DNA from: Deltaproteobacteria bacterium
Lineage (GTDB): Bacteria > Desulfobacterota > Desulfobacteria > Desulfobacterales > Desulfosarcinaceae
DNA: 64,000 nucleotides
NCBI GenBank assembly: GCA_021824175.1
Contig: JAKALP010000005.1
Location: forward strand, 186,001 to 250,000
Direction: 5' to 3'
Shown: piece by piece, positions 39,180-63,980 of the stretch
Position numbering within the stretch: position 1 is the first letter of the stretch
How the letters are laid out: every line of letters begins with the position of its first letter
The notes under the pieces: model-generated
Told to the model about the DNA's origin: nothing
Database searches by the model: none
Seen by the model: the letters and a program-made list of their open reading frames with translations, nothing else
Translations under genes and position numbers: made by a program

Positions 39180-40097
39180 TTAACCTCGCCATTCAGTGTC
39201 ATCTACCGTGGTTTTAAAATCGGGTTCGACCGTCTGCGGGGCATCCAGTTTGGCCGCCGCCTGAGCCTCTTTGGCGGTAGGTTTGCCTACAAAGACCAGC
39301 CGACTGCGCGGACACTTTTCGCAGGCCTTCATCAAATCAAGCCGACATTCATTTGTATCGGTGTACTGATCGTAGTCGATCACTGAAAGGTTGTTTTCGA
39401 TTTTAATGATATTGGAAATGCGCGCGCAGGCAGAACATCCGATGCAGCCGACATTGCATACCGCCATGACGTCTTTGCCTTTGTCTTTATTCGAGCAGGT
39501 AACGGCAAGAATTTGGGTAGAGCGAAATGGGGTGATGGTAATAATATTGCGTGGGCAAACTTTGGCGCAGGCCCCACAACCAATACAGGCGTCATAATCT
39601 ACGACGGCCAGTCCATCCTTGACATGAATGGCATCATACTTACAGGCTCGGGTGCAATCGCCGAATCCAAGGCAACCATACGTACATCCCTGGATATCAG
39701 CCACCAGGTTGGCAGATGAACACCGTTGCTCGCCAATGTACTTGGTTCGCCCCAAACGATCATGCAAATGAGCGCCGCAGTGCACAATGGGTCGGTATGG
39801 CAAAGTTTCACCAATTTCTACACCCATGATGGAAGCCACGGCCGCCGCGCAAGAGGCCCCACCCACGGGGCATTTATTGACCGGTGCGCTATCGGCCACC
39901 ACTGCTACGGCATAGTCGCCGCACCCGACGTAGCCACAACCGCCGCAATTGGCCCCAGGGAGTGCGGCCAGGACCGCTTCCACGCGCGGATCAACGTCCA
40001 CCTGAAATTTCTTATTCGCCCATCCCAAGATATATGATGCGATCAAGGCCATCACCAGCATGGTACCGCCGGCAAGACCAATAGTGACTTCTATCAT
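39180..40097 (-). CDS. rnfB: Rnf complex subunit B (ferredoxin-type)
   Basis: 305 residues; last gene of the leftward rnfCDGEAB operon. One N-terminal membrane helix (about 4-26), then the Fe-S cluster motif Cys51-x2-Cys54-x4-Cys59 with Cys76, then at least two ferredoxin-type cluster motifs (CTYGCLGFGDCTRAC, CIGCGACAKVCP) and a third set (CNVGCIGCSACARIS). RnfB takes electrons from ferredoxin. The complex couples ferredoxin oxidation to NAD+ reduction and pumps Na+ or H+. The C-terminal 40 residues are Ala/Glu-rich. Confidence 0.95.
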   Translation of the reverse strand: MIEVTIGLAGGTMLVMALIASYILGWANKKFQVDVDPRVEAVLAALPGANCGGCGYVGCGDYAVAVVADSAPVNKCPVGGASCAAAVASIMGVEIGETLPYRPIVHCGAHLHDRLGRTKYIGEQRCSSANLVADIQGCTYGCLGFGDCTRACKYDAIHVKDGLAVVDYDACIGCGACAKVCPRNIITITPFRSTQILAVTCSNKDKGKDVMAVCNVGCIGCSACARISNIIKIENNLSVIDYDQYTDTNECRLDLMKACEKCPRSRLVFVGKPTAKEAQAAAKLDAPQTVEPDFKTTVDDTEWRG

Positions 40098-40145
40098 AGC
40101 AACCTCAAAATTTACTTACTTTAGGCAATCCAGCGCCAACAACCG

Positions 40146-41003
40146 TTACGGTCTAACACTTGGCATCCGCGCCACCTCAGCTTCAGATTGTTTCAACTCT
40201 ATATTTGTCTTCTTTTTCACGTAGGTAGTGACCGCGATGGCTTTGGGCGGCTGCGCCGAAATACTTTGGGAGCTAACGGCAGCCATTTTAGGCGACGAAT
40301 CAAAAGTCAGGGCCTTGCGCAGGCCTGAATCAACCCCCGTAAATCCCATGAAAGCAAAGGCCAATATTCCGCCCGTTACCAATGTGATCGCAGCACCTTG
40401 AAACGGCTTGGGTATGTCACACAACTCCATTTCTTCTCGAATGCCGGCCATGATGACAATGCCGATCGTATATCCAACCCCGCCAAAAATGGACAAGGCC
40501 AACGCACGCCCCAAGTCCCATGCTTCAGCCGGATTTTCTACCCCCGCCACATGACTCATGATCGCGATGCAAGCAAAGAGAATGGCGCAGTTGGTAGTAA
40601 TGAGCGGTAAATACACACCAAAGGCCTTGTACAAAGATGGAAAGAACTTGCGCATGTACATTTCCACGAATTGTACGGAAGCGGCAATGGCAAATATGTA
40701 AATAATATAGCTGAGAATGGTCAAATCCACGGCATGGGCCGCTTCGGGCGGCAGAAAAAACCCAGCTACCCAAGAAGAAATGGGAGCACCGGGAATCAGC
40801 ACCAGAGCAGTAGCGGACCAGCTCAAGAATGCGGCAATCGCCATTACGAATGTTACCGCGCAACCCATGCCAAAGGCCATGTAGACATTGCGGGAGACAC
40901 CGATAAAAGAACAAATGCCGACAAAGTAGTACAAAATAAAATTATTGATCAGCGCGGCCCCGATGGAAATTAAAAATATGTCAATTAAATAGCTCATAAA
41001 CAT
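40146..41003 (-). CDS. rnfA: Rnf complex subunit A, extended C-terminus
   Basis: A six-helix membrane subunit. [20 protein letters not shown] and [20 protein letters not shown] hold the conserved cysteines that coordinate the intramembrane 2Fe-2S cluster shared with RnfE. RnfA is normally about 190-200 residues; this has 285 because of an insertion-rich loop and a polar C-terminal tail of about 80 residues ([18 protein letters not shown]...), absent from most relatives. The tail would lie outside the membrane; role unknown. Confidence 0.93.
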
Positions 41004-41030
41004 TCATCCATTTCTCACCCGTCGCAATCA

Positions 41031-41666
41031 TTAATGGGCTGGTTTAGCTTTTGGCCCGGATTTGGCTTTTCGATTTTGAATCCAATTGGCAGAAGCCAAA
41101 AGCAAGCCTAGTGCAATAAAAGCGCCCGGTGGCAGAATCATTACCGCCAAATTTGGCCAAGCCGTAGGTAATACTCTGGTGCCGAAAAACATCCCGGTTC
41201 CCAATATTTCACGCACGCTGGCGATACTCGCCAATGCCAGGGCGTAGCCAATGGACTGGCCCACCGCGTCGGCCGCTGCGACATAGACGGATTGCTTGGA
41301 GGCGCATACCTCACAGCGGCAGATGATGATGCAGTTGACGATAATCAGAGGGATATAGGGCCCCAGAGCCTTGCTCATTTGGTACATATAAGCCGCCAAA
41401 AAACGGTCGGCGATGGTGACAAATGCGGCGATGGTCAGGGTGAAGACGACAATGCGCAGATGGGGCTTTAATAAATTGCGGATCAGACTGGTCACTACGT
41501 TGGCCCCTAGTAAAACAAAGAGAACCGCACCTGCCATGGTCATGGCGGATTTCATGCTGTTAGAGATCGCCAGGACCGGACACATCCCCAGCACTTGGCG
41601 ATAGACCGGATTTTCAGGGAGTATGCCCTGAATGAAGCGTTCAAACGCAGTGGGTTGATCGGCCAC
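41031..41666 (-). CDS. rnfE: Rnf complex subunit E
   Basis: 211 residues, six predicted helices. NPVYRQVLGMCPVLAISNSM and LIIVNCIIICRCEVCASKQS hold the membrane-embedded cysteines that, with those of RnfA, bind a 2Fe-2S cluster. Spacing of 2 bp after rnfG stop fits one operon. Length normal. Confidence 0.95.
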   Translation of the reverse strand: MADQPTAFERFIQGILPENPVYRQVLGMCPVLAISNSMKSAMTMAGAVLFVLLGANVVTSLIRNLLKPHLRIVVFTLTIAAFVTIADRFLAAYMYQMSKALGPYIPLIIVNCIIICRCEVCASKQSVYVAAADAVGQSIGYALALASIASVREILGTGMFFGTRVLPTAWPNLAVMILPPGAFIALGLLLASANWIQNRKAKSGPKAKPAH

Positions 41667-41668
41667 GG

Positions 41669-42349
41669 TTACTTATCCTTTCCACTTTCAGGCACGGTAG
41701 ATAACTTTTTTTTCAGGTCCGCCACACTTTCGTTCACGATATTCACTACACTTCTCGAAGATATGGTAGCGCCAGTGACGGCATCGATTTCATTGCTGTT
41801 CTGCGCCCCGGTTTTAACTACTTTCAGGCCCGGATGGGTGGCTTTTTGCTTGAATTGATCGCGCCACTTAGGTTCCACGATTTTATTGCCCAGACCGGGA
41901 GTCTCTTTCTGATCAAGGATAAAGAGACCAGTAATTCTCTCCAAATCCGGAGTCAGGCCCAGCAGTAATTCGATACGATCCGCATACCCCTGGCCGCCGA
42001 CTTTGGTTACCCATCCGGCAGGGCGTCCATCCGCATAACTGGCCTCGAACACCGTGTAGAATTTTTTGATTCCCTTCTTATCGATCTCCACGGTGCGGGG
42101 AGTCACGGTCATGGCCTGGCCCTGATCTGCCTTCTGGGCGCCTGACTCGGCGCCAAGCAACAGTTCGGGCACTCTGGCCTTACTTTCGTTAAGCTTATTT
42201 GCCGCGATAATAGGCCCAAGGTTTGCTTCAACGGCCGCCAATGCACCACCAAAGAAAAGAGCCAGAACTATACACAGCCACGCTTGTGCCAAATGGCTGT
42301 TTTGAAATCGCCGTGCTTTTTCCGCTTTCCCATTCTGTGTCTGTGTCAT
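41669..42349 (-). CDS. rnfG: Rnf complex subunit G (FMN-bound)
   Basis: 226 residues with one N-terminal membrane helix (about 24-44) and a periplasmic FMN-binding domain. The covalent attachment motif is AVTGATISSRSV with Thr195 as predicted flavinylated residue. Requires ApbE for flavin transfer; ApbE is not in this window. Confidence 0.95.
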   Translation of the reverse strand: MTQTQNGKAEKARRFQNSHLAQAWLCIVLALFFGGALAAVEANLGPIIAANKLNESKARVPELLLGAESGAQKADQGQAMTVTPRTVEIDKKGIKKFYTVFEASYADGRPAGWVTKVGGQGYADRIELLLGLTPDLERITGLFILDQKETPGLGNKIVEPKWRDQFKQKATHPGLKVVKTGAQNSNEIDAVTGATISSRSVVNIVNESVADLKKKLSTVPESGKDK

Positions 42350-42399
42350 TATCGTTGATTCCTGTAGTCAACCTACATCTGCTGCATGAGCCAAGGTCA

Positions 42400-43398
42400 T
42401 TAAAATTCGCCCAGTGCTTTGGGAATAGTCCAGCGGTTTATCAATGGGGTGACGCCATTCATCAGCAGGACCGCGAACATTACACCTTCGGGATAGCCAC
42501 TGAAGAGCCTCAGCACCATCACCAAGGCACCCACTCCGGCGCCGAAAATGAATTTGCCTTTGGGAGTCAACGGACTGGTTACGGGATCAGTGGCGATGAA
42601 GAACGCGCCGAACATCAACGCCCCGCCCAACAGGTGATGAAGTACAAGCCTTCCGCCGAAATTTCCTGCCAAATCGGCGATGCCGGCAATGATCAGCGCC
42701 ACGGATAGCATTCCCGCTGGTATTTCCCATGATGCGGTGCGACGCAGGCAAAGATAGAGCCCGCCCAGAAGGCAAGCCAGAGCGCTTGTTTCTCCTAACG
42801 AGCCGTTCGTCCAACCAAAGAAAAGGTCCAATGCGGGTGTCAGTTTGCCTGCTTGTTTAAAAGCATTCATTGGGGTGGCCTGAGACAGGATATCCACCAC
42901 ACTGCCGCTCTGTTCATATCCCCCCGCCCCCATGATGCCCGCGAAGGAGATCATTACAAAAGCCCGGCCCACCATCGCTGGATTGAAGATATTCATCCCC
43001 AGGCCCCCAAAAACAATTTTGCCAAGGCCGATGGCCACTACCGAAGCAATCATGCCGGCATACCAAGGCGCCGTAGCCGGCAGGGAAAGCGCCAGTATAA
43101 CGCCGGTGACAACAGCCGAACAATCAGCGAGAGTCACCGGTTTGCGCCGCATGGCAACAAACAGCATCTCGGACGCCAGGCAGGCGCAAACGCAAATAAA
43201 AAGTTGACGCAAAGCATAGCCATGAAAAAGATAAATAGACATGGCTAAGGGCGGCGACAAAGCGATGAGGACATCAATCATCATCCGCCGGGTAGTAAAG
43301 TCGAGGTTGCCGACGTGAGGCGATGGAGCTACATGCAAAGATGGCCCCGGAATCTCCACTGCTTTCGAACCGTGTAAATTCTCCAATGTCTTCGTCAT
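42400..43398 (-). CDS. rnfD: Rnf complex subunit D
   Basis: 332 residues with about ten membrane segments. The predicted covalent FMN site is Thr175 in DILSQATPMNAF; MNIFNPAMVGRAF and FIATDPVTSPLTPKG are conserved. It follows rnfC by 11 bp. Together with RnfG it carries electrons across the membrane while ions are moved. Confidence 0.95.
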   Translation of the reverse strand: MTKTLENLHGSKAVEIPGPSLHVAPSPHVGNLDFTTRRMMIDVLIALSPPLAMSIYLFHGYALRQLFICVCACLASEMLFVAMRRKPVTLADCSAVVTGVILALSLPATAPWYAGMIASVVAIGLGKIVFGGLGMNIFNPAMVGRAFVMISFAGIMGAGGYEQSGSVVDILSQATPMNAFKQAGKLTPALDLFFGWTNGSLGETSALACLLGGLYLCLRRTASWEIPAGMLSVALIIAGIADLAGNFGGRLVLHHLLGGALMFGAFFIATDPVTSPLTPKGKFIFGAGVGALVMVLRLFSGYPEGVMFAVLLMNGVTPLINRWTIPKALGEF

Positions 43399-43409
43399 AT
43401 CCGTTCCGA

Positions 43410-44777
43410 TTATTTCTTCCGACTGGCCACGACCATGGCCTTGCCCATGCGAATCAGCTGTACCAGCTTAATGTGCGCCGGGCAAATATAGGTACAAGAG
43501 CCACATTCAAAGCAGGCCAGGATATTATACTGCTGCGCCAATGCCAGCTTGCCATGCCGAGAAGCCATCGCCAACTTTGTTGGCACCAGTCGCATGGGAC
43601 ACACATCAACGCAACGACCGCAGCGTACGCAATTGGTCTCTCGCTCGCGTCGCAGATCCGAATGCGTGAGAACCGTCAGACCGCTGGTGCCTTTGGTCAC
43701 AGGCATGTCCAGGTTGGAAAATGAAAAGCCCATCATGGGGCCGCCAGCGACAATTCGGGCGGCATCCGGCGTCAAGCCGCCGCAGAAATTAAATACCTCG
43801 CCCATACTGATGCCGATGGGCACCAATAGGTTCTTGGGTTGGGCGATGCCGCGCCCGGTCACGCTGATCACCCGATGGGTCAGCGGCTTTTCGCGAATCA
43901 CCGATCGGGCCACCGCGGCAATGGTGGCCACATTGCTCATGGCCACACCAACATCGGCCGGCAGACCGCCCAAAGGGACTTCCAGATCCAGCACCGCCTT
44001 GATGAGCTGCTTTTCGCTGCCTTGGGGGTATTTGGTTTTCAACACGGCAATCTTGATCACCGTACCCTTTGCTTCAGCGCGCAAACTGGCAATGGCCTCG
44101 GGCTTGTTGTCTTCGATGCAGATAATGATCTCTTTGGCGGCCACCGCCCGGGCGGCGTGCAGGGCGCCGGCAATGATCGGTCCAGGCGCTTCTACCATGA
44201 CACGATAATCGGTGGTCAGGTAGGGCTCACACTCGCAGCCATTCACCATAAGGGTGTCGATCATTTTGGTATCATCCGGACGCACCTTGACGTGGGTCGG
44301 AAAGGCCGCTCCGCCTAAACCGACGATGCCGGCCTCATGGATCAATTTGGCAATGGAGGTCGGATAGTAAATGATGGGACAATCCTTAGGCCAATGGCCC
44401 CCCAGTACATCATCATAAAGGGCCTGGCCAACCACTTGGTCCCCCTTGGCCTTGATATAAATGGCGGGCAGGTGCCGTCCATTGGGCAGGGTGCAAACCC
44501 CTATTTTTTCAACCACACCGTTGATCGGGCTATGGAGATTGGCGGAAACAAAGGCTTTGCCGACACCGATGGTTTCACCCCAGGCGACCTCCTGTTTCGG
44601 CTTGACGATCGGCTCGCAAGGAGCCCCAATATTTTGCAGCAACGGCAGGACTACCCGTTCGGGGGGAGGCATCACCTCAATGGGGACATTACTGGATAGT
44701 TCTTTGTTTTCAGGTGGATGAATCCCATGGGGGAAACTGCCTTTTCCAGGAAACCCTTTAAATTGAATCGAACCCAT
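43410..44777 (-). CDS. rnfC: Rnf complex subunit C
   Basis: 455 residues, first gene of the operon. It has the NuoF-like flavin/NADH-binding core (GLGGAAFPTHVKVRP, NGCECEPYLTTDYRVM) and two C-terminal 4Fe-4S sites: Cys383, 386, 389, 393 and Cys422, 425, 428, 432. RnfC is the NAD-reducing peripheral subunit. The promoter should lie in the 414-bp region upstream. Confidence 0.95.
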   Translation of the reverse strand: MGSIQFKGFPGKGSFPHGIHPPENKELSSNVPIEVMPPPERVVLPLLQNIGAPCEPIVKPKQEVAWGETIGVGKAFVSANLHSPINGVVEKIGVCTLPNGRHLPAIYIKAKGDQVVGQALYDDVLGGHWPKDCPIIYYPTSIAKLIHEAGIVGLGGAAFPTHVKVRPDDTKMIDTLMVNGCECEPYLTTDYRVMVEAPGPIIAGALHAARAVAAKEIIICIEDNKPEAIASLRAEAKGTVIKIAVLKTKYPQGSEKQLIKAVLDLEVPLGGLPADVGVAMSNVATIAAVARSVIREKPLTHRVISVTGRGIAQPKNLLVPIGISMGEVFNFCGGLTPDAARIVAGGPMMGFSFSNLDMPVTKGTSGLTVLTHSDLRRERETNCVRCGRCVDVCPMRLVPTKLAMASRHGKLALAQQYNILACFECGSCTYICPAHIKLVQLIRMGKAMVVASRKK

Positions 44778-51605: not shown

Positions 51606-52565
51606 TCAAAAAAGGTAGGTAGTACCAACTGTGTTCAGCACAAATTGCGAGGGCATTTCAGTGGCAAAACGGTTGATGGCCTTCCAGCCGGTGCAATGCA
51701 TTGGGGCGATGACCGCCGGCGCGACCGCTTTCATGGCCTGCACCGTGGATTCAATGGCCCCCTCGCTGGGGCCGCTCAAATGAAAACCACCCAAGACAGC
51801 ATGGATGCGCTCGACGCCACTGACTTTAGCCGCATGCTTGACCGTATTGATGATGCCGGCATGGGAGCAGCCGCCCAGCAGGACCAGACCTTTGTCTTTC
51901 ACATTGAAAGCAATGGCCTGGTCGTCAATGAAACTGTCCGGCGCCCATTGGCCGTTGCGTTTGGCTTCCAAACCCGGCGAGCCGGTTTCGAAATCGGTAA
52001 CCCTCTCGACGGTACCGGTCACCAGAACATACCCTCCGGCCAGCGTTGACGGGTCGGAGCGTTTGTCTATGACAGCGCCGGCAGCGGTTAGCACCTCCTG
52101 TTTTAACGCAGGCATAGGGACATACAATTCAGGCCCCATTTTGATGCGGCGCTCTACAAAGGCATCCGGGTGCACCACCAGGGGCACGGTTTTCTTGGCT
52201 TGCTTGAGAAATTGAGGTAATCCAGCAAAGTGATCGAAATGGCCATGGCTCAGCACAATGCTCTCCAGATCCTCAATCTTGTGACGCACCACGCCGAATT
52301 GGACTGCCAGACTCGCGGCCATCAACGCTGTGTTGTGCATAATGCAGGTCCCGGAAATGCCGGCATCCATCACGAGGGTGTGCTTGGCTTGGCCGGCGTA
52401 AACAGTGACCAGATACCCCAGGCCATGTTCGGCCATGGGCGCGGCTGGCGGCGCCACCCGCATTCTTTTGACCGTTTCGGTATCTGGTAGAAGAATGTCG
52501 CTGTAGTTATCCACCAGAATAGTGACTTCCGCCCGATCCACTTCGGGCAAAGGAATATGGGCCAT
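51606..52565 (-). CDS. MBL-fold metallo-hydrolase
   Basis: 319 residues. The metal-binding motif is SHGHFDHFAGL (His107, His109, Asp111, His112), with further ligands GCSHAGII and HCTGW. The arrangement resembles the 7,8-dihydropterin-6-methyl-4-(beta-D-ribofuranosyl)aminobenzene-5'-phosphate synthase-like branch of the MBL family. It is the first gene after the sigma-54 promoter and is presumed to head the ORP-type operon. Substrate unknown. Confidence 0.85.
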   Translation of the reverse strand: MAHIPLPEVDRAEVTILVDNYSDILLPDTETVKRMRVAPPAAPMAEHGLGYLVTVYAGQAKHTLVMDAGISGTCIMHNTALMAASLAVQFGVVRHKIEDLESIVLSHGHFDHFAGLPQFLKQAKKTVPLVVHPDAFVERRIKMGPELYVPMPALKQEVLTAAGAVIDKRSDPSTLAGGYVLVTGTVERVTDFETGSPGLEAKRNGQWAPDSFIDDQAIAFNVKDKGLVLLGGCSHAGIINTVKHAAKVSGVERIHAVLGGFHLSGPSEGAIESTVQAMKAVAPAVIAPMHCTGWKAINRFATEMPSQFVLNTVGTTYLF

Positions 52566-52626: not shown

Positions 52627-52642
52627 AGCAATGGATGTGCCA
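52627..52642 (-). promoter_or_regulatory. Sigma-54 promoter of the ORP-type operon
   Basis: On the minus strand: TGGCAC-N5-TTGCT, the full -24/-12 consensus with 10 bp between GG and GC. It directs transcription leftward into the MBL-fold gene, whose start is about 60 bp away. The neighbouring gene encodes a sigma-54 activator. Confidence 0.8.
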
Positions 52643-52775: not shown

Positions 52776-54149
52776 ATGGCCACCCGCGACGTCAAGCAAA
52801 AACAGCAGATCGATGTGGTTTTGAACTCCATCAATGAAGGGGTTTTCACGGTGGACCAGAATTTTCGCATTACTTCCTTTAATCGAGCCGCCGAGCGCAT
52901 CACCGGCATATCCCGCCAGCAGGTGTTGGGCAGAGCCTGCTGCGACGTATTTCATGCCGACATCTGTGAATCCGCTTGCGCTCTCCGGCGGACCTTTGCC
53001 ACGGGCCGGCCCGTGGTCAATGCCACGGCTAATATTGTCAACAACCAGGGCGATCGCGTGCCCATTCGCATTTCGACCGCCATTTTGAAAAACACGGCTG
53101 GCGATACCATCGGCGGCGTGGAAACATTTCAAGATCTAAGCCAGGTCGAGCAGCTGCAAAAAGAGCTGGAGAGCCGCTATACCTTTGAGGATATCGTGGG
53201 ACGCAGCAGCGCCATGATGCAGTTGTTCAAAGTACTTCCCCAAATTGCCGAAAGCGACAGCACGGTGTTGATTCAAGGCGCCAGCGGCACGGGCAAGGAA
53301 CTCTTTGCCCGGGCCATTCACAACCTCTCCCCCCGGCGTAAAAAACGATTCGTGGCGGTCAACTGCGCCGCCCTGCCCGATGCGCTATTGGAAAGCGAGC
53401 TGTTCGGCCACAAAGCCGGGGCGTTTACCGATGCCAAGCGGGATAAGGCCGGTCGATTCGAGCTGGCCGATGGCGGCACTATTTTTCTGGATGAGATTGG
53501 AGATATCTCCTCTGCCATGCAGATGCGCCTCTTACGGGTTCTCCAGGACCATTTCATCGAACCTTTAGGCGCCGTCCAACCCAAGCCAGTGAATATCCGC
53601 GTCGTGGCGGCCACCAATAAGGACTTGGCCAACCTGGTAAAGAGCGGCCAATTCCGGGAAGATCTCTTCTATCGCATTCGGGTCATCCATATGAATTTGC
53701 CGACTCTGAAAGAACGGCGCGAGGACATTCCTCTGCTAATCGACCACCTGGTGGGCAAATTCAACCGCTTGCAAACCAAAGACATTGCCGGCACGTCGCC
53801 CGAAGTGATCGCGCGTCTGATGGCCTATGAGTTTCCAGGCAACGTGCGTGAACTCGAAAATATCATTGAGCAAGCCTTTGTGTTGTGCCGCACGGGGAGA
53901 ATTGAGTTGCGGCATTTGCCCCCGGAATTGCGCTCCGACAAGGAATCGGTCGGCCAACGCATCGGCTCCATGAATCTGCGTGTCATGGAAAAGCAGATGA
54001 TGGCCGAAGCGCTGCGCATCTACCAGGGCAACCGCAAGATGGCGGCCGGATCGCTGGGGATTGATGTGGCCACCCTCTTTCGAAAGATAAAAGCCCACGG
54101 CATCGAAGCGCCGGAAAGCGACGGACGGGGAAGGCGGCGGGGCCGTTGA
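52776..54149 (+). CDS. Sigma-54-dependent activator with PAS domain
   Basis: 457 residues: PAS domain (about 10-125), AAA+ domain (about 135-365) with Walker A GASGTGKE (168-175) and the sigma-54 contact loop GAFTDA (215-220, usual GAFTGA), and a Fis-type HTH at the end (NRKMAAGSLGIDVATLFRKI). The PAS domain has a Cys-rich segment, Cys55-Cys56, Cys64, Cys68, which could hold a redox or Fe-S sensor. It is transcribed away from the MBL gene and followed by the HdrD-like gene, both with sigma-54 promoters. This fits the activator of divergent orp operons described in Desulfovibrio. Confidence 0.92.
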   Translation: MATRDVKQKQQIDVVLNSINEGVFTVDQNFRITSFNRAAERITGISRQQVLGRACCDVFHADICESACALRRTFATGRPVVNATANIVNNQGDRVPIRISTAILKNTAGDTIGGVETFQDLSQVEQLQKELESRYTFEDIVGRSSAMMQLFKVLPQIAESDSTVLIQGASGTGKELFARAIHNLSPRRKKRFVAVNCAALPDALLESELFGHKAGAFTDAKRDKAGRFELADGGTIFLDEIGDISSAMQMRLLRVLQDHFIEPLGAVQPKPVNIRVVAATNKDLANLVKSGQFREDLFYRIRVIHMNLPTLKERREDIPLLIDHLVGKFNRLQTKDIAGTSPEVIARLMAYEFPGNVRELENIIEQAFVLCRTGRIELRHLPPELRSDKESVGQRIGSMNLRVMEKQMMAEALRIYQGNRKMAAGSLGIDVATLFRKIKAHGIEAPESDGRGRRRGR

Positions 54150-54434: not shown

Positions 54435-54450
54435 TGGCACAATGGGTGCT
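54435..54450 (+). promoter_or_regulatory. Sigma-54 promoter of the HdrD-like gene
   Basis: TGGCAC-N5-GTGCT with correct GG-N10-GC spacing, about 88 bp upstream of the start codon. The -12 box has G for the first T. Confidence 0.6.
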
Positions 54451-54537
54451 ACCGATCGGGTATTGGATACTTCCGCGAACAGCCGGCGATCAATATATCA
54501 ACATATCAACTCATTTAAGTAAGGAGGACGAAACCCT

Positions 54538-55857
54538 ATGACCGATCAACCCATCAGACTTGGCCGCAAAAAGGAGAGCACCTTTTTGGACAGGGTCAAG
54601 GAAATACTGCCCCAAGGCGGCAATCTCAATTTGTGTCTCACTTGCGGCGCCTGCTCATCCGGCTGCCCGGCCACTGGCCTGGAAAATATGGACCCTCGCA
54701 AGTTTTTGCGCATGGCTGCCCTGGGCATGGATGATGAAATCCGTAAATCCAAGTGGGTCTGGATGTGCTCCATGTGCCAGCGCTGCATCTATGTCTGCCC
54801 CATGCAGATCAACATTCCCCAGCTGGTCTACAATGCCCGGGCCTTGTGGCCCAGAGATGAACGTCCCAAAGGGATTTTGGGTTCCTGCGACATGGCCTTG
54901 CGCAACGCCAGCACCAGTGCCATGGGCACCGAGCCGGAAGATTTCCGTTTCGTGGTCGAAGATGTGCTGGAAGAGTATCGCGAAGCACAGCCGGAATTCG
55001 CCGACATGGAAGCGCCCATCGACAAAGAGGGCGCGGAGTTCTTCTTGAACCAGAACTCCCGCGAGCCGGTCACCGAACCTGATGAGATGGTGCCGTTGTG
55101 GAAAATTCTGCATCTGGCCGGCGCCAACTGGACTTATGGTTCCAAAGGTTGGGCCGGAGAGAACTACTGCATGTTTTTGGCGGACGACGAGTCCTGGAAG
55201 CACATCACCACCACCACGGCCAAACAGGCGGACCACCTGGGATGCAAGATCTTTCTCAACACGGAGTGAGGGCACGTGACCTTCTCAGTCCTGGCAGGAC
55301 TGAAAAAATTCAACATCCCGCACAACTTTGTGGTGAAGAACATTTACGAATACTACGCCAAGTGGATACGGGAGGGCAAACTCAAAGTCAATTCAGACTG
55401 GAACAAGGAACTCAAAATCAAATTCACGGTTCAAGACCCTTGCCAGATCGTACGAAAAACTTATGGCGACGCCATTGCCGAAGATCTGCGCTTCGTGGTC
55501 AAATCGGTGGTCGGAGAGGAGAACTTCGTCGACATGTACCCAAACCGCTCCAATAACTTCTGCTGCGGCGGAGGAGGAGGATTTCTCCAATCAGGGTACA
55601 AGGAGGAACGGTTGGAGTATGGCCGGCTCAAAGACCAGCAGATTCAGAACACCGGGGCTGATTACTGCATTGCCGGTTGCCACAACTGCCATGCCCAGAT
55701 TCACGAACTCAGCGAGCATTATGGTGCGGGTTACGGCGTGGTCCACCTCTGGACCCTGATTTGTCTTTCTTTAGGCATTTTAGGCCCAAAGGAACGTGAA
55801 TATCTCCGCGATGATTTGAAAGAAGTCAATGTATTTCATCCGGAGACGGAGATGTAA
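54538..55857 (+). CDS. HdrC/HdrD-like Fe-S protein with in-frame UGA (selenocysteine)
   Basis: Read through TGA 55267-55269, this is one 439-residue protein. Residues 1-100 have two 4Fe-4S sites (Cys33, 36, 39, 43 and Cys77, 80, 83, 87), as in HdrC. The rest is HdrB/HdrD-like: the UGA is codon 244 in the motif NTE-U-GH, where relatives have NTECGH; the second half has QDPCQIVRK and the CCG segment NFCCGGGGGFLQSG...GCHNCHAQ. The codon after UGA is in the same frame, so no indel is needed. Selenocysteine-containing Fe-S oxidoreductases of this kind are known in Deltaproteobacteria. AAGGAGG lies 10 nt before ATG. Standard gene callers would give two genes, 54538-55269 and 55276-55857. Confidence 0.87.
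55285..55303 (+). promoter_or_regulatory. SECIS-like hairpin
   Basis: TCAGTCCT and AGGACTGA form a perfect 8-bp stem with loop GGC. The loop begins 24 nt after the UGA and has G in its first two bases, as in bacterial SECIS elements. It lies inside the coding frame. Confidence 0.65.
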
Positions 55858-55993: not shown

Positions 55994-56371
55994 ATGCAGA
56001 TTTTAACCTTTGAAGAGTTGAAGCAAAAGCAAGCCGAAGGAATGGCGGCTTCCCAAAAGGCGGCCGCCCAAAACCATGACCTCTATCGAGCTATCAAACA
56101 ATTGGTCCGTCAAATCAATGCGGAGCCGCTGGATGTGGCCGATTACTACCCCGTGGCCTCACGCCTGGGCAAGCTATTGAATGAAATCAAGTCCGGTTTT
56201 AACGACACAATCTTTCACTATTTCGCAGAACAAATCGACCCTTCACAAAATGGGGATGTGCGCTGTTTTCGAATGGAATGCCGTCAACTGGCCGAACAGA
56301 TCGAAGAACTTGATCGCTTCAGGGTCCAGCGACACCGGCTCACCCTCGTAAAAAAGGGCTGCATATCATGA
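55994..56371 (+). CDS. Helical hypothetical protein
   Basis: 125 residues: FEELKQKQAEGMAASQKAAA, YRAIKQLVRQINAEPLDVAD, RQLAEQIEELDRFRVQ. Soluble and helical. No family recognised. It overlaps the following NifX-like gene by 4 bp, so the two are translationally coupled. Possibly an accessory for the NifX-like protein; this is inferred from the overlap. Confidence 0.6.
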   Translation: MQILTFEELKQKQAEGMAASQKAAAQNHDLYRAIKQLVRQINAEPLDVADYYPVASRLGKLLNEIKSGFNDTIFHYFAEQIDPSQNGDVRCFRMECRQLAEQIEELDRFRVQRHRLTLVKKGCIS

Positions 56372-56787
56372 AAGCGGCCTTCGCGACGTGGGGAGATCGC
56401 ATTGCTCCGCTATTTGACGCGGCGCGCCAAATCCAGATTGTGCAGATGGATTCCGGGCGTATTGTCTGCCAGTCTTGCGATCAATTCATCGTTGAAACCC
56501 CGCCCCAAAAAGTCTTACATCTGGCCGAGCTGGGCATTGATGTGGTGGTGTGCGGCGCCATCACCAAACCGTTGCATGCCATGCTTTGCGCCCAGGGTCT
56601 GCGGGTTATTTCTTTTGTTTCGGGGGATCTGAAAGAAGTCATTCAAGCCTTGAGGAGTGGGAAAATCAGCGATATCTGTTACGCGATGCCAGGACATCGA
56701 GTGGTCAACACGTCAGGCAAGATGAAAGCTGGGAGAAGCAATTTCTCTTCGAACGAATCGATAGCCGTTGGAAACCAACGCTATTAA
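56368..56787 (+). CDS. NifX/MTH1175-like protein, second copy
   Basis: 139 residues: AAFATWGDRIAPLFDAARQI, CQSCDQFIVETPPQKVLHL, GIDVVVCGAITKPLHAML. It belongs to the dinitrogenase iron-molybdenum cofactor/MTH1175 fold, like the gene at 47971 and the C-terminal half at 50216. It has Cys-x2-Cys (CQSC) in its middle, which the others do not share. Its neighbours (HdrD-like, NifU-like) suggest that it carries a cofactor for the Hdr set. Confidence 0.7.
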   Translation: MKAAFATWGDRIAPLFDAARQIQIVQMDSGRIVCQSCDQFIVETPPQKVLHLAELGIDVVVCGAITKPLHAMLCAQGLRVISFVSGDLKEVIQALRSGKISDICYAMPGHRVVNTSGKMKAGRSNFSSNESIAVGNQRY

Positions 56788-58912: not shown

Positions 58913-61342
58913 TTATCCATTCAACTCATACACGGCTTCCCGGTTCTTATGAGCAAAGTCGATGACACCGCTTTGCACCATATCCCACAGGCAGGAAGCT
59001 ACCCTCTTCTGATCTTCCTTCACAAAGCTCGACAACTGATCCAGGTTGAATGGCCCCCGTTCCGCCTTGAACACCATCAACAGGCGCTGCTGCAGAAATT
59101 CTTCGGTCAGCACGGCTGAGAAATCGCGATCGTATTCCAGGGCATGACGTTGGTCGCCCCGATAGCTATGCTCCCAGGGCCGGCGCAACCCGGCGGACAA
59201 AAGATGACGCACGCGGGTGTTATTTTTGATCAAATTGTACAAGGCATTGAGTTTGGCCTGGTTCTCCGCGGTTTTTGGGATGGGCCCCAGGGCAGCCATG
59301 GTGCGTGTGAAGCTATCCACGGTTTTGACAAACTCTTCGGCGTGGTTTAGATCCGCGTGAGCCAAGGCGATGCGGCGTCGGTCAAAGCCACACAGGCTCA
59401 GCAGTTTCTTGATGGTGTTGACCCGACTCCAGGAGTGATCAATGCCATACGAGTGATGGCAGGTTTCCGGCAGACAACCGATAAGCAGCAATCCGGGGGC
59501 CCCATCTTTTAAGGCCCGGGCCATGGCGCAGGCATCGATCTGGCCCACGCACGGAACTCCGAGCAAGTACATGCGAGGATCATATTTGAGTCCCTGCTTG
59601 CCGGCGATATCGGCCGCCGGCAGACCGCCCCAACCACAAGCAAAGGCCATGCACTCATCCGGCCCCAAGCTGCGCGCCAGAGCGCTGACCCGGGCCTCAC
59701 GCTGATCGTTGCTGTTGTTCTGCAAGACCAGGGCATGGTACGGGCAGGCCGCCGCGCAGGTGCCACCACCGGTGCACACCATGGGGTCGACGATGCGCGG
59801 CAGGCCACCTCCAGGACCTTCTTCCACGCCAATGCCGCCGCAATCACACAATTCTTGGCACTGGCCGCAACCAATGCACTTATCGGGGTCCACCACGCAT
59901 ACGACCCGCGGAATGAAGAGTTCGCCTTGGGCCGATTTGCGGAACATTTCAGCTGTTTTGGCAGCCGCCCTCCGCCCCTGGGATAGGGCATCATGCAAAC
60001 TGCAGGGCAGACGCGCGCTGCCGGCCAGATAGGTCTCCTCGCGCCCCACCATTTCAGGTCGCACCCGGGCATGATGACCTGTTAAAAAGCGTCCCTCTTT
60101 GTGCACCAGCCCCAGAATACGAGCCGTTTCCAGGGCTTCTCCCGAAACCACCCGTTCCGGGGAGACCACCAAAAAATCCCACTGAATCTCATGCTCCACG
60201 TGGTCTGAAAGGTTGCAGAAGGTCAGAGAACCATCTTGCACCGTGGGCCGCAAGGCCTTGTCGTAGGGAATCCAGAGGATGTCAAGCTTGCGGTTGACGG
60301 CCCGCTCCGCGGCGGTCAGCGGCACCTCCATCTGCTGATTATGAAGAATGATCACCCTGGAAGCATTGGTGGATTGACGAATGTGCACTGCCATCTGCCA
60401 GGCGTTTTTAGCGGATAAGGCCGCGAAGTCCGACTGACCGATCTCGTAGTCACTGATCCAGAAGACTGTTGTGCCTTTGGGCGCGCCGTTATTCTGAATA
60501 TACTGCTCCATTTCCGGTGGAATCATGACCGTGTGCCCATCATGGCCGAACCCCGGCCCGGGCAGTTCATAAGCGGCATCCAGGCAGGCGATGATGGCGC
60601 CAACAGCGAATTTCTCCTGCCCACCATCGGTCGTGGCGAAGGTCAAGCTATAGCTACCGGTAACGCCGGACAGGCTCGTGAGCTTGTACCCCAACAGCAC
60701 GGTAGCATGGGGGGTTTGGATGGCTTCGCCAATGAGTTTTTTCAACCGGTCATCATAGGCCCGTTCGCCGGTAAAGCTGCGGTGCATTTGATTCAAAATT
60801 TCTTCCGGCTCCTGATGGCTTACCGCCAGCAAATAATCAATCTCTTGCCGGGCCAACTCAGCGGCAGCGGCAAAGGAGGCCATGCCATCGCCCACCACCA
60901 TGACCGGCCCATGGATCTGCGCACGGGTTTCAATGCTCGGGTTCAAGGCGGCCATTTCGGCTACAGCCGCGCCGATCAGCTTGGCGGCCTTTTGTGCTTT
61001 TTGGACGGGTTCCCAATCCGATACATTGGCCACATGTCCGCGCAGATTGACCATCTCGACTTGCCCCTTGAGCAGTTCCAGGGGCCGCAGCTCTTTTTCA
61101 AATTTATTCAGCATCAAACGCCCCTCGCAGCCGGCGATGACGATGCGGTTGAGCTTTTGATCAGTTATCGCCTGGGTAATATGTTCAATCCCCGGCTTCA
61201 GACAAGGGAAAGCAAGGGTTTCACAATGAGCCACTTGAGCGTTTTCGCCCACTGATTTTTTCAACGCCGCCATATCAATAAAGGGCGCGATATTCTCTCC
61301 ACACTTGCAGAGGAAGACGCCAATATTAGCTGAAGTATTCAT
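58913..61342 (-). CDS. hdrA: HdrA with C-terminal MvhD-like domain, degenerate motifs
   Basis: From ATG 61342 (GGAGGTGAAT) 809 residues. The N-terminus has CKCG (Cys12, 14). The Rossmann motif at 145-163 reads VVGDGMASFAAAAELA, with Ser in place of the usual last Gly. Ferredoxin site one: Cys489, 492, 495, 499. Site two: Cys523, Gly526, Cys529, Cys533, so one ligand is missing (CTGG instead of CTGC). MvhD-like C-terminus (about 560-660) with Cys564, 569, 598, 623, 628. HdrA is the flavin subunit of heterodisulfide reductase, where electrons bifurcate; the altered FAD motif leaves that in question. The upstream frame extension through the heptad tract is not a real N-terminus. Confidence 0.9.
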   Translation of the reverse strand: MNTSANIGVFLCKCGENIAPFIDMAALKKSVGENAQVAHCETLAFPCLKPGIEHITQAITDQKLNRIVIAGCEGRLMLNKFEKELRPLELLKGQVEMVNLRGHVANVSDWEPVQKAQKAAKLIGAAVAEMAALNPSIETRAQIHGPVMVVGDGMASFAAAAELARQEIDYLLAVSHQEPEEILNQMHRSFTGERAYDDRLKKLIGEAIQTPHATVLLGYKLTSLSGVTGSYSLTFATTDGGQEKFAVGAIIACLDAAYELPGPGFGHDGHTVMIPPEMEQYIQNNGAPKGTTVFWISDYEIGQSDFAALSAKNAWQMAVHIRQSTNASRVIILHNQQMEVPLTAAERAVNRKLDILWIPYDKALRPTVQDGSLTFCNLSDHVEHEIQWDFLVVSPERVVSGEALETARILGLVHKEGRFLTGHHARVRPEMVGREETYLAGSARLPCSLHDALSQGRRAAAKTAEMFRKSAQGELFIPRVVCVVDPDKCIGCGQCQELCDCGGIGVEEGPGGGLPRIVDPMVCTGGGTCAAACPYHALVLQNNSNDQREARVSALARSLGPDECMAFACGWGGLPAADIAGKQGLKYDPRMYLLGVPCVGQIDACAMARALKDGAPGLLLIGCLPETCHHSYGIDHSWSRVNTIKKLLSLCGFDRRRIALAHADLNHAEEFVKTVDSFTRTMAALGPIPKTAENQAKLNALYNLIKNNTRVRHLLSAGLRRPWEHSYRGDQRHALEYDRDFSAVLTEEFLQQRLLMVFKAERGPFNLDQLSSFVKEDQKRVASCLWDMVQSGVIDFAHKNREAVYELNG

Positions 61343-61360
61343 ATTCACCTCCAAGGGATG

Positions 61361-61405
61361 GTTGATTAGTTGATCGGTTGATTGGTTGATTGGTTGATTC
61401 GTTTC
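61361..61405. repeat. Heptad TTGATT tract, copy 4
   Basis: GTTGATT AGTTGAT CGGTTGATT GGTTGATT GGTTGATT, the longest tract in the window, lies between the HdrA start and the NuoG-like gene. A reverse-oriented one follows at 61449-61475. Confidence 0.65.
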
Positions 61406-61476
61406 TTCGTGGCGCCGATTCACATTTGGCAAGGGTTACGTCTGATCGCCCAATCAACGAATCGACGGATTAGCGA

Positions 61477-62079
61477 CTACGCCAACTGCGTTAAGGCCGT
61501 CGCCGGCTCGCCGCGCACCGAATCAAAAATCTTCTGCATGGCACCCGTGGGACAGATAGTGATGCAGCTACCGCAGGCCACGCAGATATCCGTGGGCCGG
61601 GCAAAGGGTGCCCCGACGCGCTTATGGATGCCGCGATCCACCGTGGCAATGGCTGACAGCCCCACTACTTCTTCGCACACTCTCGCGCACAGACCACAAA
61701 CAAAGCAGGTTTGATCCGGATCTTTACTGGCAAAACGGCTCCGGATCACATTGTATTTGGCTGCCAGCTGGACAATTTCCGGGCTGGCCGGACAAGCAGC
61801 CAGAAGCATTTCCAGCACCCAACGGCGCACATTTCTGACCCGTTCGGTGTCGGTGTACACTTGCAACCCCTCGGCCACCGGATAGATGCAGGAAGCCACC
61901 AGTTTGGACCAACTGCCTTCGCGCAGCTCCACCATGCACAGACGGCAAGCGCCGCTGCTGCTGACCGCCGGATGAAAACACAGGGTCGGAATTTCGATGC
62001 CATATTCCCGGGCCGTCTCCAGGACCGTCCAGCCCGGTCGCGCCTGAACTTCTTCGTCATTTATCTTGAAAGTAATCAT
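61477..62079 (-). CDS. NuoG/HoxU-like iron-sulfur subunit
   Basis: 200 residues. The 2Fe-2S ferredoxin domain holds Cys34, Cys45, Cys48, Cys64; then two 4Fe-4S sites at Cys125, 128, 131, 135 and Cys166, 169, 172, 176. This is the short NuoG-like protein (HoxU type) that wires NADH-dehydrogenase-like modules to other partners. The middle HxxxCxxC cluster of full NuoG is absent. It overlaps no gene; the NuoF-like gene ends 20 bp upstream. Confidence 0.9.
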   Translation of the reverse strand: MITFKINDEEVQARPGWTVLETAREYGIEIPTLCFHPAVSSSGACRLCMVELREGSWSKLVASCIYPVAEGLQVYTDTERVRNVRRWVLEMLLAACPASPEIVQLAAKYNVIRSRFASKDPDQTCFVCGLCARVCEEVVGLSAIATVDRGIHKRVGAPFARPTDICVACGSCITICPTGAMQKIFDSVRGEPATALTQLA

Positions 62080-62099
62080 TTTACTTTTCTCCTCTGGTA

Positions 62100-63980
62100 T
62101 TATGAAATCACCACCGCGTTAAATTTGCACGTATCCATGCAAATCCCGCATCGCAGACACTTTTCGGCATCAATGATATGCGCCGCTTTCTTCTTGCCGG
62201 TGATGCATTGAGCCGGACACTGCCGCGCGCAGCTCATGCAGCCGGTGCACAGCTCTGGATCGATGCTGTAGGTGATCAGGTCCTTGCACACGCCGGCCGG
62301 GCACTTATGATCCCGGATGTGGGCCATGTACTCCTCTTTGAAGTAACGCAGCGTAGTCAATACCGGATTGGGGGCGCTCGAACCCAAAGCGCACAATGCG
62401 CCGTCCTGGACCGCTTGGGCCAGGCTGGTGAGGTCCTCGATGTCTTGCTCGGTGCCCTGCCCCTTGGAGAAGTTGTCCAGGATTTCGCGCATGCGTGTCA
62501 GACCCAAACGGCACGGCAGACATTTGCCGCACGACTCTTCTTCCAGAAAGCGCAGGAAGTAGCGCCCCACATCCACCACGCAATCCGTGTCATCCATGAC
62601 AATCATGGCGCCGGACCCCATCATGGAGCCGGCGGCGGTCAAGGAGTCGAAATCCACCGGCGTGCCCTTGAGCCGGTATGGGATGCAACCGCCTGATGGA
62701 CCGCCGGTCTGTACGGCCTTAAAGGGTTTGCCGTTGGGCACGCCGCCGCCGATCTCTTCCACGATGGCAGCCATGGGCACACCCATGGGAACTTCCACCA
62801 ACCCCACATTGTTGACCTTGCCCACCAACGAGAAAACTTTGGTGCCGGTGGAGTGGGACACGCCCAGGCCGGCATACCAGCCGCTACCCCGTTCGATGAT
62901 CAACGGCACATTGGCAAAGGTTTCCACGTTGTTGAGCACCGTCGGCCTGCCCCACAAGCCCTCCTCCACCGAGCGCACATACTTGGGCCGCGGATTGCCG
63001 GGTTTGCCCTCGATGGAAGTAAACAGGGCCGTGGATTCGCCGCACACAAAGGCGCCGGCGCCGCGGTTAATGCGGGCGTCAAAGGAAAAGCCGGAGTTGA
63101 GGATATTTTCTCCCAGCAGGCCGAAGGCGCGCGCCTGGGCCATGGCGATTTCAAGATGGCGGATGGCCAGGGGATACTCGGCCCGCACATAGAGATAGCC
63201 CTGTTGCGCCCCGAGCGCATAGGCAGCAAGGATCAAGCCCTCCAGGACCGCATGGGGATCGCCTTCCATGATGGTGCGGTCCATGAATGCGCCGGGATCA
63301 CCTTCATCGCCATTGACCACCACATAGACCGGCCGCCCCTTTTTCTTGATGGCGTTCAAGGCGCTGCGCCACTTCTTGCCGGTGGGGAACCCGGCCCCGC
63401 CGCGGCCGCGTAACCCGGATTTTTCGATTTCTTTCACCACCTGCTCGGGCCTCATGGTGCTCAACGCCTTGGCCAGGGCCTGGTAGCCGCCGGCCGCGAT
63501 GGTGTCGCTGATGTCGGTGGGGTCGATCTTGCCGATGTTGTGCAGGACGACCCGCTGCTGGAGTTTGTAAAACGGGATCTGGTCTTCGGTGAAAATCAGG
63601 TCGTCGGTTTTGGGGTCTTTGTAAAGCAACCGTTCCACTGCTTGCCCCTCGACCAATGTGCGTTTCACGATCTCTTCCACATCCTTGGGGCTGACGCGCT
63701 GGTAGAAAAGCCCCTTGGGTCGAATGATCACCAGGGGTCCGCGGGAACAAAATCCGTGGCAGCCGGTGGTCTTGATACCGGGCACTACCTTGGCATCGAT
63801 GCCGGCCGCGTCAATAGCGGTCTTAAAGGCCTTGGCGACTTTGTCGCTGCCATTGGCCAGACATCCCGTGCCGTGGCAAATGACGATTTCAGGACGCGCC
63901 GGATCGCGTTCCGAGAGGATCTGCTCCCGCAGTTTATTCAAATCCTGCGCCGATTGCAGGCGCCAGGAGCCGACTTTCAA
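62100..63980 (-). CDS. NuoF-like NADH-binding flavoprotein (HndC/HydB type)
   Basis: About 626 residues in the window. A thioredoxin-like 2Fe-2S domain opens it (Cys35, 40, 74, 78), then the NADH/FMN core (GRGGAGFPTGKKW, GDEGDPGAFMDRTI, SCGKCLPCRLGL) and a C-terminal double ferredoxin (Cys578, 581, 584, 588; Cys608, 611, 614, 618). This architecture is found in NADH-dependent and electron-bifurcating hydrogenases and NuoF-linked Hdr complexes. The start given is a TTG at 63980, with no good ribosome site; the frame stays open to the window edge, so the true start may lie outside. Confidence 0.92.
   Translation of the reverse strand: MKVGSWRLQSAQDLNKLREQILSERDPARPEIVICHGTGCLANGSDKVAKAFKTAIDAAGIDAKVVPGIKTTGCHGFCSRGPLVIIRPKGLFYQRVSPKDVEEIVKRTLVEGQAVERLLYKDPKTDDLIFTEDQIPFYKLQQRVVLHNIGKIDPTDISDTIAAGGYQALAKALSTMRPEQVVKEIEKSGLRGRGGAGFPTGKKWRSALNAIKKKGRPVYVVVNGDEGDPGAFMDRTIMEGDPHAVLEGLILAAYALGAQQGYLYVRAEYPLAIRHLEIAMAQARAFGLLGENILNSGFSFDARINRGAGAFVCGESTALFTSIEGKPGNPRPKYVRSVEEGLWGRPTVLNNVETFANVPLIIERGSGWYAGLGVSHSTGTKVFSLVGKVNNVGLVEVPMGVPMAAIVEEIGGGVPNGKPFKAVQTGGPSGGCIPYRLKGTPVDFDSLTAAGSMMGSGAMIVMDDTDCVVDVGRYFLRFLEEESCGKCLPCRLGLTRMREILDNFSKGQGTEQDIEDLTSLAQAVQDGALCALGSSAPNPVLTTLRYFKEEYMAHIRDHKCPAGVCKDLITYSIDPELCTGCMSCARQCPAQCITGKKKAAHIIDAEKCLRCGICMDTCKFNAVVIS

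Follow-up and report, generated by a model that had tools for sequence, protein, structure and literature searches.

A stop codon most probably read as selenocysteine in an HdrD-like Fe-S electron-transfer protein of a sulfate-reducer-type bacterium

The window, i.e. the whole 64-kb stretch of DNA that was analysed, carries on its forward strand a gene for an HdrD-like Fe-S protein interrupted by an in-frame UGA codon (Table 1). The gene order of sigma-54 regulator, selenocysteine (Sec) gene, 125-aa protein and NifX-like protein is that of the genus, and the regulator is kept beside the Sec gene in genus members. By direct translation, one frame runs from ATG 54538 through TGA 55267-55269 to TAA 55855-55857; with the TGA translated as a residue, the site reads NTE-U-GHVTFSVL, and the sequence after it GHVTFSVLAG. 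The observation of an in-frame TGA inside one gene is confirmed as real. The initial annotation had placed the codon exactly and had described the flanking protein as continuous, and the frame is indeed open to the TAA. It had also expected standard annotation to split the gene, and a mechanical ORF finder does return two pieces, of 243 aa and 193 aa, a clear case of one selenoprotein gene cut in two by ORF finding.

Table 1. Positions of the gene, its elements and its neighbours in the window.
Feature	Position	Strand	Remarks
Sec-containing HdrD-like Fe-S protein gene	54538..55857	+	439 residues, UGA read through
Shine-Dalgarno-like sequence	54522..54528	+	5' of ATG; read from sequence
UGA codon for Sec244, motif E-U-G-H	55267..55269	+	TGA conserved in relatives
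SECIS-type hairpin	55285..55303	+	8-bp stem, loop GGC at 55293-55295
4Fe-4S dicluster domain	54625..54810	+	residues 30-91; Pfam Fer4_8 and related
CCG domain	55426..55701	+	residues 297-388; Pfam CCG; C302, C342, C343, C381, C384
Sigma-54-type -24/-12 element	54435..54450	+	103 nt before ATG
Sigma-54-dependent regulator gene, probable activator	52776..54149	+	NCBIfam matches below cut-off (those compared by eye)
125-aa protein gene, often adjoining Sec gene	55994..56371	+	no NCBIfam match; 22/80 loci (best 80 of 537)
139-aa NifX-like protein gene	56368..56787	+	weak match to MrpORP C-terminus
HdrA-like protein gene with VhuD/MvhD-type domain, possible local partner	58913..61432	-	below curated cut-offs
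NuoG-N-terminus-like and NuoF-like genes, adjoining HdrA-like gene	61477..63980	-	family matches

The part of the gene that follows the TGA has the properties of coding sequence. Its open continuation of 195 codons is the longest found after any of 26 TGA-ending ORFs in the 64-kb window, the next longest being 86, although these ORFs (at least 100 aa and largely non-overlapping) surely include some that are not genes. Protein identity to L027 is 89.7% before the TGA and 92.3% after it. Over the 195 codons after the TGA, the two genes show 83 synonymous and 15 non-synonymous codon differences, and the post-TGA part is therefore under selection as protein.

A relative of the protein was encoded in 537 stretches, and the best 80 from named genomes were kept as the close group. 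The Sec column is TGA in all 80 of these closest relatives (best 80 of 537), with one in-frame stop in the alignment in 79 of them and two in the remaining one. The 80 comprise isolates and one complete genome, that of Desulfonema magnum; the TGA is kept in these as well, and a sequencing error is therefore very unlikely. A 2007 paper on an Olavius symbiont is reportedly earlier related work, and one of the best 80 of 537 relatives (L178) comes from an Olavius-associated Delta 1 record. Among the fetched homologues, which are part of all matches, the column reads TGA in 55 rows, TGC in 14 and TTC in one. The TGC rows consist of 13 with an ECGH motif and L016, and Cys homologues carry TGC or TGT at this place; the TTC belongs to one degenerate extra copy in L065, with a TAA inside. 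Cysteine had been predicted for related proteins by the initial annotation, and TmcB (L014) and HmcF (L015) from the same genome, both above their NCBIfam cut-offs, do have ECGH. Apart from the degenerate copy with TTC, the homologues had neither a stop nor a gap at this position, and residue 244 is always Sec or Cys in 43 aligned homologue rows. At least four changes between Sec and Cys are required by a tree of 66 rows (short search, support by SH-aLRT only), in which a Cys clade of six rows is nested among Sec rows with a support of 100.

Three further UGA-containing paralogues are present in the same genome, with 73% (L010, C54), 60% (L012, C23) and 36% (L013, C46) identity and TGA at the same column; the C23 paralogue lies 3' of a MetF-like gene and 5' of hdrA. 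Homologue frames marked by TAA or TAG were considered as further recoded codons and, in the segments read individually, rejected. In the matching segments of L070, L078, L080 and L081 the extra stop lies near the C-terminal end, beyond the aligned family sequence, the exception being the degenerate copy in L065.

The loop of the SECIS-type hairpin lies 23 nt from the UGA. Alone, the hairpin is weak evidence, because hairpins of this kind with at least 7 bp follow 139 of the 2376 TGAs on both window strands (loose rules) and the folding z-score of the region is only -1.48, so that single-sequence folding is not significant. For 9 of the 2376 window TGAs the best hairpin had 8 bp or more and a loop of 3 nt, and a search of the window at gathering cut-offs returned no Rfam family. 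It is the conservation and covariation of the hairpin in the aligned relatives, not the hairpin by itself, that make the case. All seven pairs form in 47 of 55 Sec rows and six pairs in four; the four rows with fewer pairs (L013, L082, L083 and L084) are the distant group of 36% identity. Seven pairs form in 68 members of the close group and six in the other 12 (best 80 of 537). In the Cys homologues the hairpin is not formed in any of 13, none of which has more than five pairs. Over 30 Sec rows, 95.0% of the pairing cells are paired, compared with at most 44.2% in a shifted register; four of the eight stem pairs are changed on both sides, and the loop-closing pair is G-C in 14 rows and U-A in 14. 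With shuffles that ignore relatedness, the covariation score and the pairing percentage were reached by none of 500 and the number of doubly changed pairs by 6 of 500, while the number of pair types was not above the shuffles (367 of 500 at least as high).

The initial annotation had proposed a check of the genome (G000; 6.07 Mb, 99.52% complete) for the Sec machinery, and selA, selB, selD and tRNA-Sec were all found. Two SelD proteins, with one in-frame TGA each, scored above cut-off. A canonical tRNA-Sec (73.3 bits, above the Rfam cut-off) lies at C32:147833, on the contig of the window and approximately 38 kb before it. The gene product is almost certainly a single Fe-S protein of 439 residues (predicted as soluble), and the UGA would be decoded as selenocysteine by SelB and tRNA-Sec using the SECIS hairpin.

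Residues E243, U/C244, G245, H246, C302, C342, C343, C381 and C384 are invariant in the 43 homologue rows, and the five cysteines form the motif of a CCG (noncubane) cluster. Only one CCG domain is recognised by Pfam, and the first half of this region is without the Cys set; HMMER profiles revealed no similarity between the two CCG halves. The AlphaFold model has a mean pLDDT of 88.2. Its best matches among solved structures in Foldseek are mycobacterial EtfD (E 2.0e-10, TM by query 0.67) and methanogen HdrB (E 9.1e-6 to 5.0e-5, TM by query 0.40-0.45), with both of which the CCG ligands align. As described in the available text of the publications, and unlike the window protein, EtfD resides in the membrane and carries a linear [3Fe-4S] cluster in its first CCG domain, and HdrB has two noncubane clusters. 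Motif and fold suggest that the domain order is very probably that of a fused HdrC-HdrB (soluble HdrD), in which a single noncubane-type cluster, placed in the second CCG domain, would be fed by two 4Fe-4S clusters.

In two profile searches, E-U-G-H aligned with T-C581-P-H583 of mycobacterial EtfD. In the available text on EtfD, Cys581 ligates the linear [3Fe-4S] cluster D1 of the first CCG domain together with Cys503, Cys538 and Cys584, and His583 binds the noncubane cluster D2, which is said to make D2 non-catalytic. One profile alignment showed no Cys in the window protein at the places of Cys503, Cys538 and Cys584. As these D1 counterparts are absent and the Sec column corresponds to Cys581, Sec244 looks like a remnant of the first cluster site: the first CCG domain would have lost its cluster, and Sec244 and His246, the remaining ligand motif, should sit in the emptied site and face the remaining noncubane-type cluster. 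From this position a catalytic role of Sec244 seems likelier than a ligand role, and there may be an even chance that it acts as a redox-active selenolate next to the noncubane cluster, taking the position that the second cluster has in HdrB, and not as an ordinary ligand. Tuning of electron transfer alone is a further candidate role. Were His246 to bind the cluster, as its counterpart does in EtfD, this would argue against a catalytic cluster. The initial annotation had taken the residue to be an Fe-S cluster ligand and had supposed that selenium would lower the redox potential of the centre. Such a part as a structural ligand that tunes the potential appears rather unlikely: the alignment with a D1 ligand and the occurrence of only Sec or Cys at the column in the 43 rows speak for it, but the other D1 cysteines have no Cys counterpart and the second CCG motif is complete without Sec244.

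Candidate partners for this Fe-S protein are suggested by the surroundings of its orthologues. Among the 80 orthologue loci (best 80 of 537), metV or metF of at least 55% identity is found on the same strand at 21, hdrA at 40% or more at 28, the 125-aa gene downstream at 22, the regulator at 50% or more at 12, and none of these at 27; contig ends truncate some of the 59 loci without metVF. The genes of Desulfonema magnum run hdrA, mvhD, Sec-gene orthologue, metV, metF, and an orthologue of 88% identity (L114) stands beside hdrA and metF. At the window locus, neither hdrA nor metVF is part of the Sec gene's operon. The same genome has two hdrA-mvhD-metV-metF modules elsewhere (C25 and C11; L257 3483-10249 and L258 8160-13218). 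Neither of the two 19.5-kb module stretches contains a match to the window protein, and a genome-wide search for the CCG family gave no match closer than 10 kb to metF at either module; the nearest CCG protein is TmcB on C11, at a distance of about 11 kb from metF. Orthologues stand in metVF-hdrA operons and the modules of this genome are without an adjacent CCG protein, hence service in trans is suggested, and the Sec protein may serve the MetVF modules in this way. Against such a role speak the 27 orthologue loci (best 80 of 537) that have none of the neighbours named above, the lack of hdrA and metVF in the operon at the window locus, and the position of TmcB on C11. In addition, the 27 CCG matches in the genome include HdrB-like proteins with two CCG domains, which could serve the MetVF modules too. 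Electrons would be exchanged, in either direction, with an HdrA-MvhD flavoprotein module, with the MetVF methylene-tetrahydrofolate reductase of the Wood-Ljungdahl pathway as the most likely end partner, in trans here; this assignment is tentative, its probability being put a little below one half. The orthologue operons offer a testable role, namely the HdrBC slot of an Hdr-type methylene-tetrahydrofolate reductase in sulfate reducers. In the window itself, an ORF at 13621-15165 has MetF-like (32%) and MetV-C-terminus-like (40%) stretches in one frame.

A partner closer at hand would be the HdrA-like, NuoF-like and NuoG-like set at 58913-63980 on the minus strand, instead of MetVF. A congener (L088) has the same divergent arrangement and input modules of the NADH type are present, but the set is on the opposite strand and does not form a single operon with the Sec gene, and the close orthologue in L114 adjoins hdrA and metF instead. 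A local partner is doubtful, and MetVF in trans is retained as the preferred assignment.

In the window, three matches to -24/-12-type elements were found with 0.37 expected. TGGCAC-N6-TGC is present within 350 nt upstream of the Sec gene in six of nine genus sequences, at 97-103 nt in five and at 184 nt in one, and the other three have a TGGCAT variant; the strict form was found in one of 11 sequences from other genera. In the genus, it is on balance probable that a sigma-54 promoter and the neighbouring activator control the Sec gene. A second sigma-54-type element lies at 52627-52642 on the minus strand, before a divergent MBL-fold gene (51606-52565), and the regulator gene is flanked on both sides by such elements. 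The explanation as a whole, comprising Sec readthrough, an HdrD-like Fe-S protein, HdrA-MvhD and MetVF as partners and sigma-54 control, is considered likely.

The window protein has the 4Fe-4S plus CCG architecture that we take to define the GlpC/UGH family (COG0247), together with a UGA with SECIS, Cys homologues and Sec machinery. Sec-containing 'GlpC' Fe-S oxidoreductases encoded alongside hdrA and frhD in operons of Deltaproteobacteria had been described by 2006 (PMC1794560), and a 2026 review lists a 'Fe-S oxidoreductase-like (GlpC), UGH' family with a UGH motif (PMC13188914); in the available text of these sources, no role is proven for the family, listed since 2006. The UGH motif (here E-U-G-H, residues 243-246), the Fe-S protein of Deltaproteobacteria and the hdrA-linked operons are shared with the published family (PMC1794560, PMC13188914). 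The published operon, as given in the available text, is glpC-hdrA-frhD-frhG-frhA, whereas the close orthologues here have metV/metF as linked genes and the Sec gene of the window itself stands apart, with a sigma-54 regulator. The likeness to the family, whose published reference is WP_174406253.1, is one of motif, domains and recoding. A Sec-containing HdrD4 of Desulfobacterium autotrophicum was reported in 2009 (PMC2702500); compared by description in the available text, it is likewise a soluble HdrC-HdrB fusion with Sec, from a related sulfate reducer. The window protein does not have the two complete CCG motifs of soluble HdrD, and is hence termed HdrD-like.

HmcF, TmcB and DsrK are the nearest NCBIfam families. 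The domain order is the same, and TmcB and HmcF of this genome have the Cys of ECGH at the Sec column, but the window protein scores far below the cut-offs for TmcB, HmcF and DsrK (163.3/735, 169.6/750 and 115.9/400 bits, respectively) and for GlpC proper (TIGR03379; 26.4 against a cut-off of 279.9). Hdr-type MetVF (HdrCBA-MvhD-MetVF) with HdrB and HdrC has been published for Sporomusa and proposed for Moorella (PMC9430772, available text). In hdrA-mvhD-metV-metF operons, the place that hdrB and hdrC take in these acetogens is occupied by orthologues of the window gene, a linkage found at 21 of the 80 loci (best 80 of 537) and not at the window locus; one fused Sec protein replaces separate HdrB and HdrC, and in the window genome the modules and the Sec gene are apart. 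Among the matches listed in a literature search that left most subscription journals outside, no publication placed a Sec HdrD in a metVF-hdrA operon. The protein family and its link to hdrA are already known, and the link to metVF, the likely partner enzymes, is apparently new.

The genome also has a second SelB (L093 15730-17652), directly preceded by a divergent tRNA-Sec with a UCA anticodon and U73 (L093 15620-15706; G000:C22:173696 on), which scores 52.2 bits, above cut-off. A Sec-type SelD lies about 6 kb further on, and the pair is preceded, at about 9 kb, by a Cys paralogue of the window protein. Comparable tRNA-SelB pairs are present in relatives. All 11 such second tRNAs compared have U73 before an encoded CCA, and ARAGORN calls the anticodon as UCA in nine, as GCA in G034 and not at all in G007. 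A Cys-encoded paralogue of 65-71% identity was found at 5 of the 11 U73-tRNA loci (TGC in four, TGT in one), and the locus of G034 has a 32% homologue with Cys; no Cys paralogue was found in the remaining five stretches, some of which are truncated at contig ends. The surroundings of the second SelB were also scanned for conserved genes with an in-frame UGA; the matches listed were mostly antisense or out-of-frame noise.

U73 is a Cys-type discriminator base, and the U73 group presumably resembles tRNA-ReC, reportedly a published group of Cys-recoding tRNAs. The pair in this genome, the constant U73 and this precedent would favour frequent or constant decoding of the UGA as Cys by the second SelB and the U73 tRNA. 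Such decoding is nevertheless very unlikely, as the canonical tRNA-Sec, SelA and SelD are present in the genome, the UCA anticodon is expected to weaken recognition by CysRS, and a plain Cys codon would suffice were Cys always wanted, as in the Cys paralogues. Slightly less improbable is a switch, with residue 244 being Sec when selenium is plentiful and Cys, through the second SelB and the U73 tRNA, when it is scarce. Since a Cys paralogue accompanies the U73 tRNA at 5 of 11 loci, one locus would then hold a Cys back-up enzyme and a Cys-inserting decoder, both serving the Hdr electron-transfer system. The Sec and Cys versions within one genome make the benefit of selenium directly testable. 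Finally, that the UGA is a true stop, yielding a 243-residue protein and a separate 193-residue protein from GTG 55276, is extremely unlikely: a purine-rich GGAG/GAGGG precedes this GTG and the ORF finder calls both pieces, but the codon after GH does not always specify Val, other Sec groups having E or S there together with the same UGA and hairpin; all 80 close relatives (best 80 of 537) retain the TGA and hairpin, and the Cys homologues are single chains.

Two minor observations, both made by eye, concern other genes. Six minus-strand genes at 39180-44777 of the window resemble an Rnf complex. In L094 (1860-6216), ORF translations contain the repeated LFRSITAPASLK beside cas4/cas1- and cas2-like genes, probably marking a CRISPR array.
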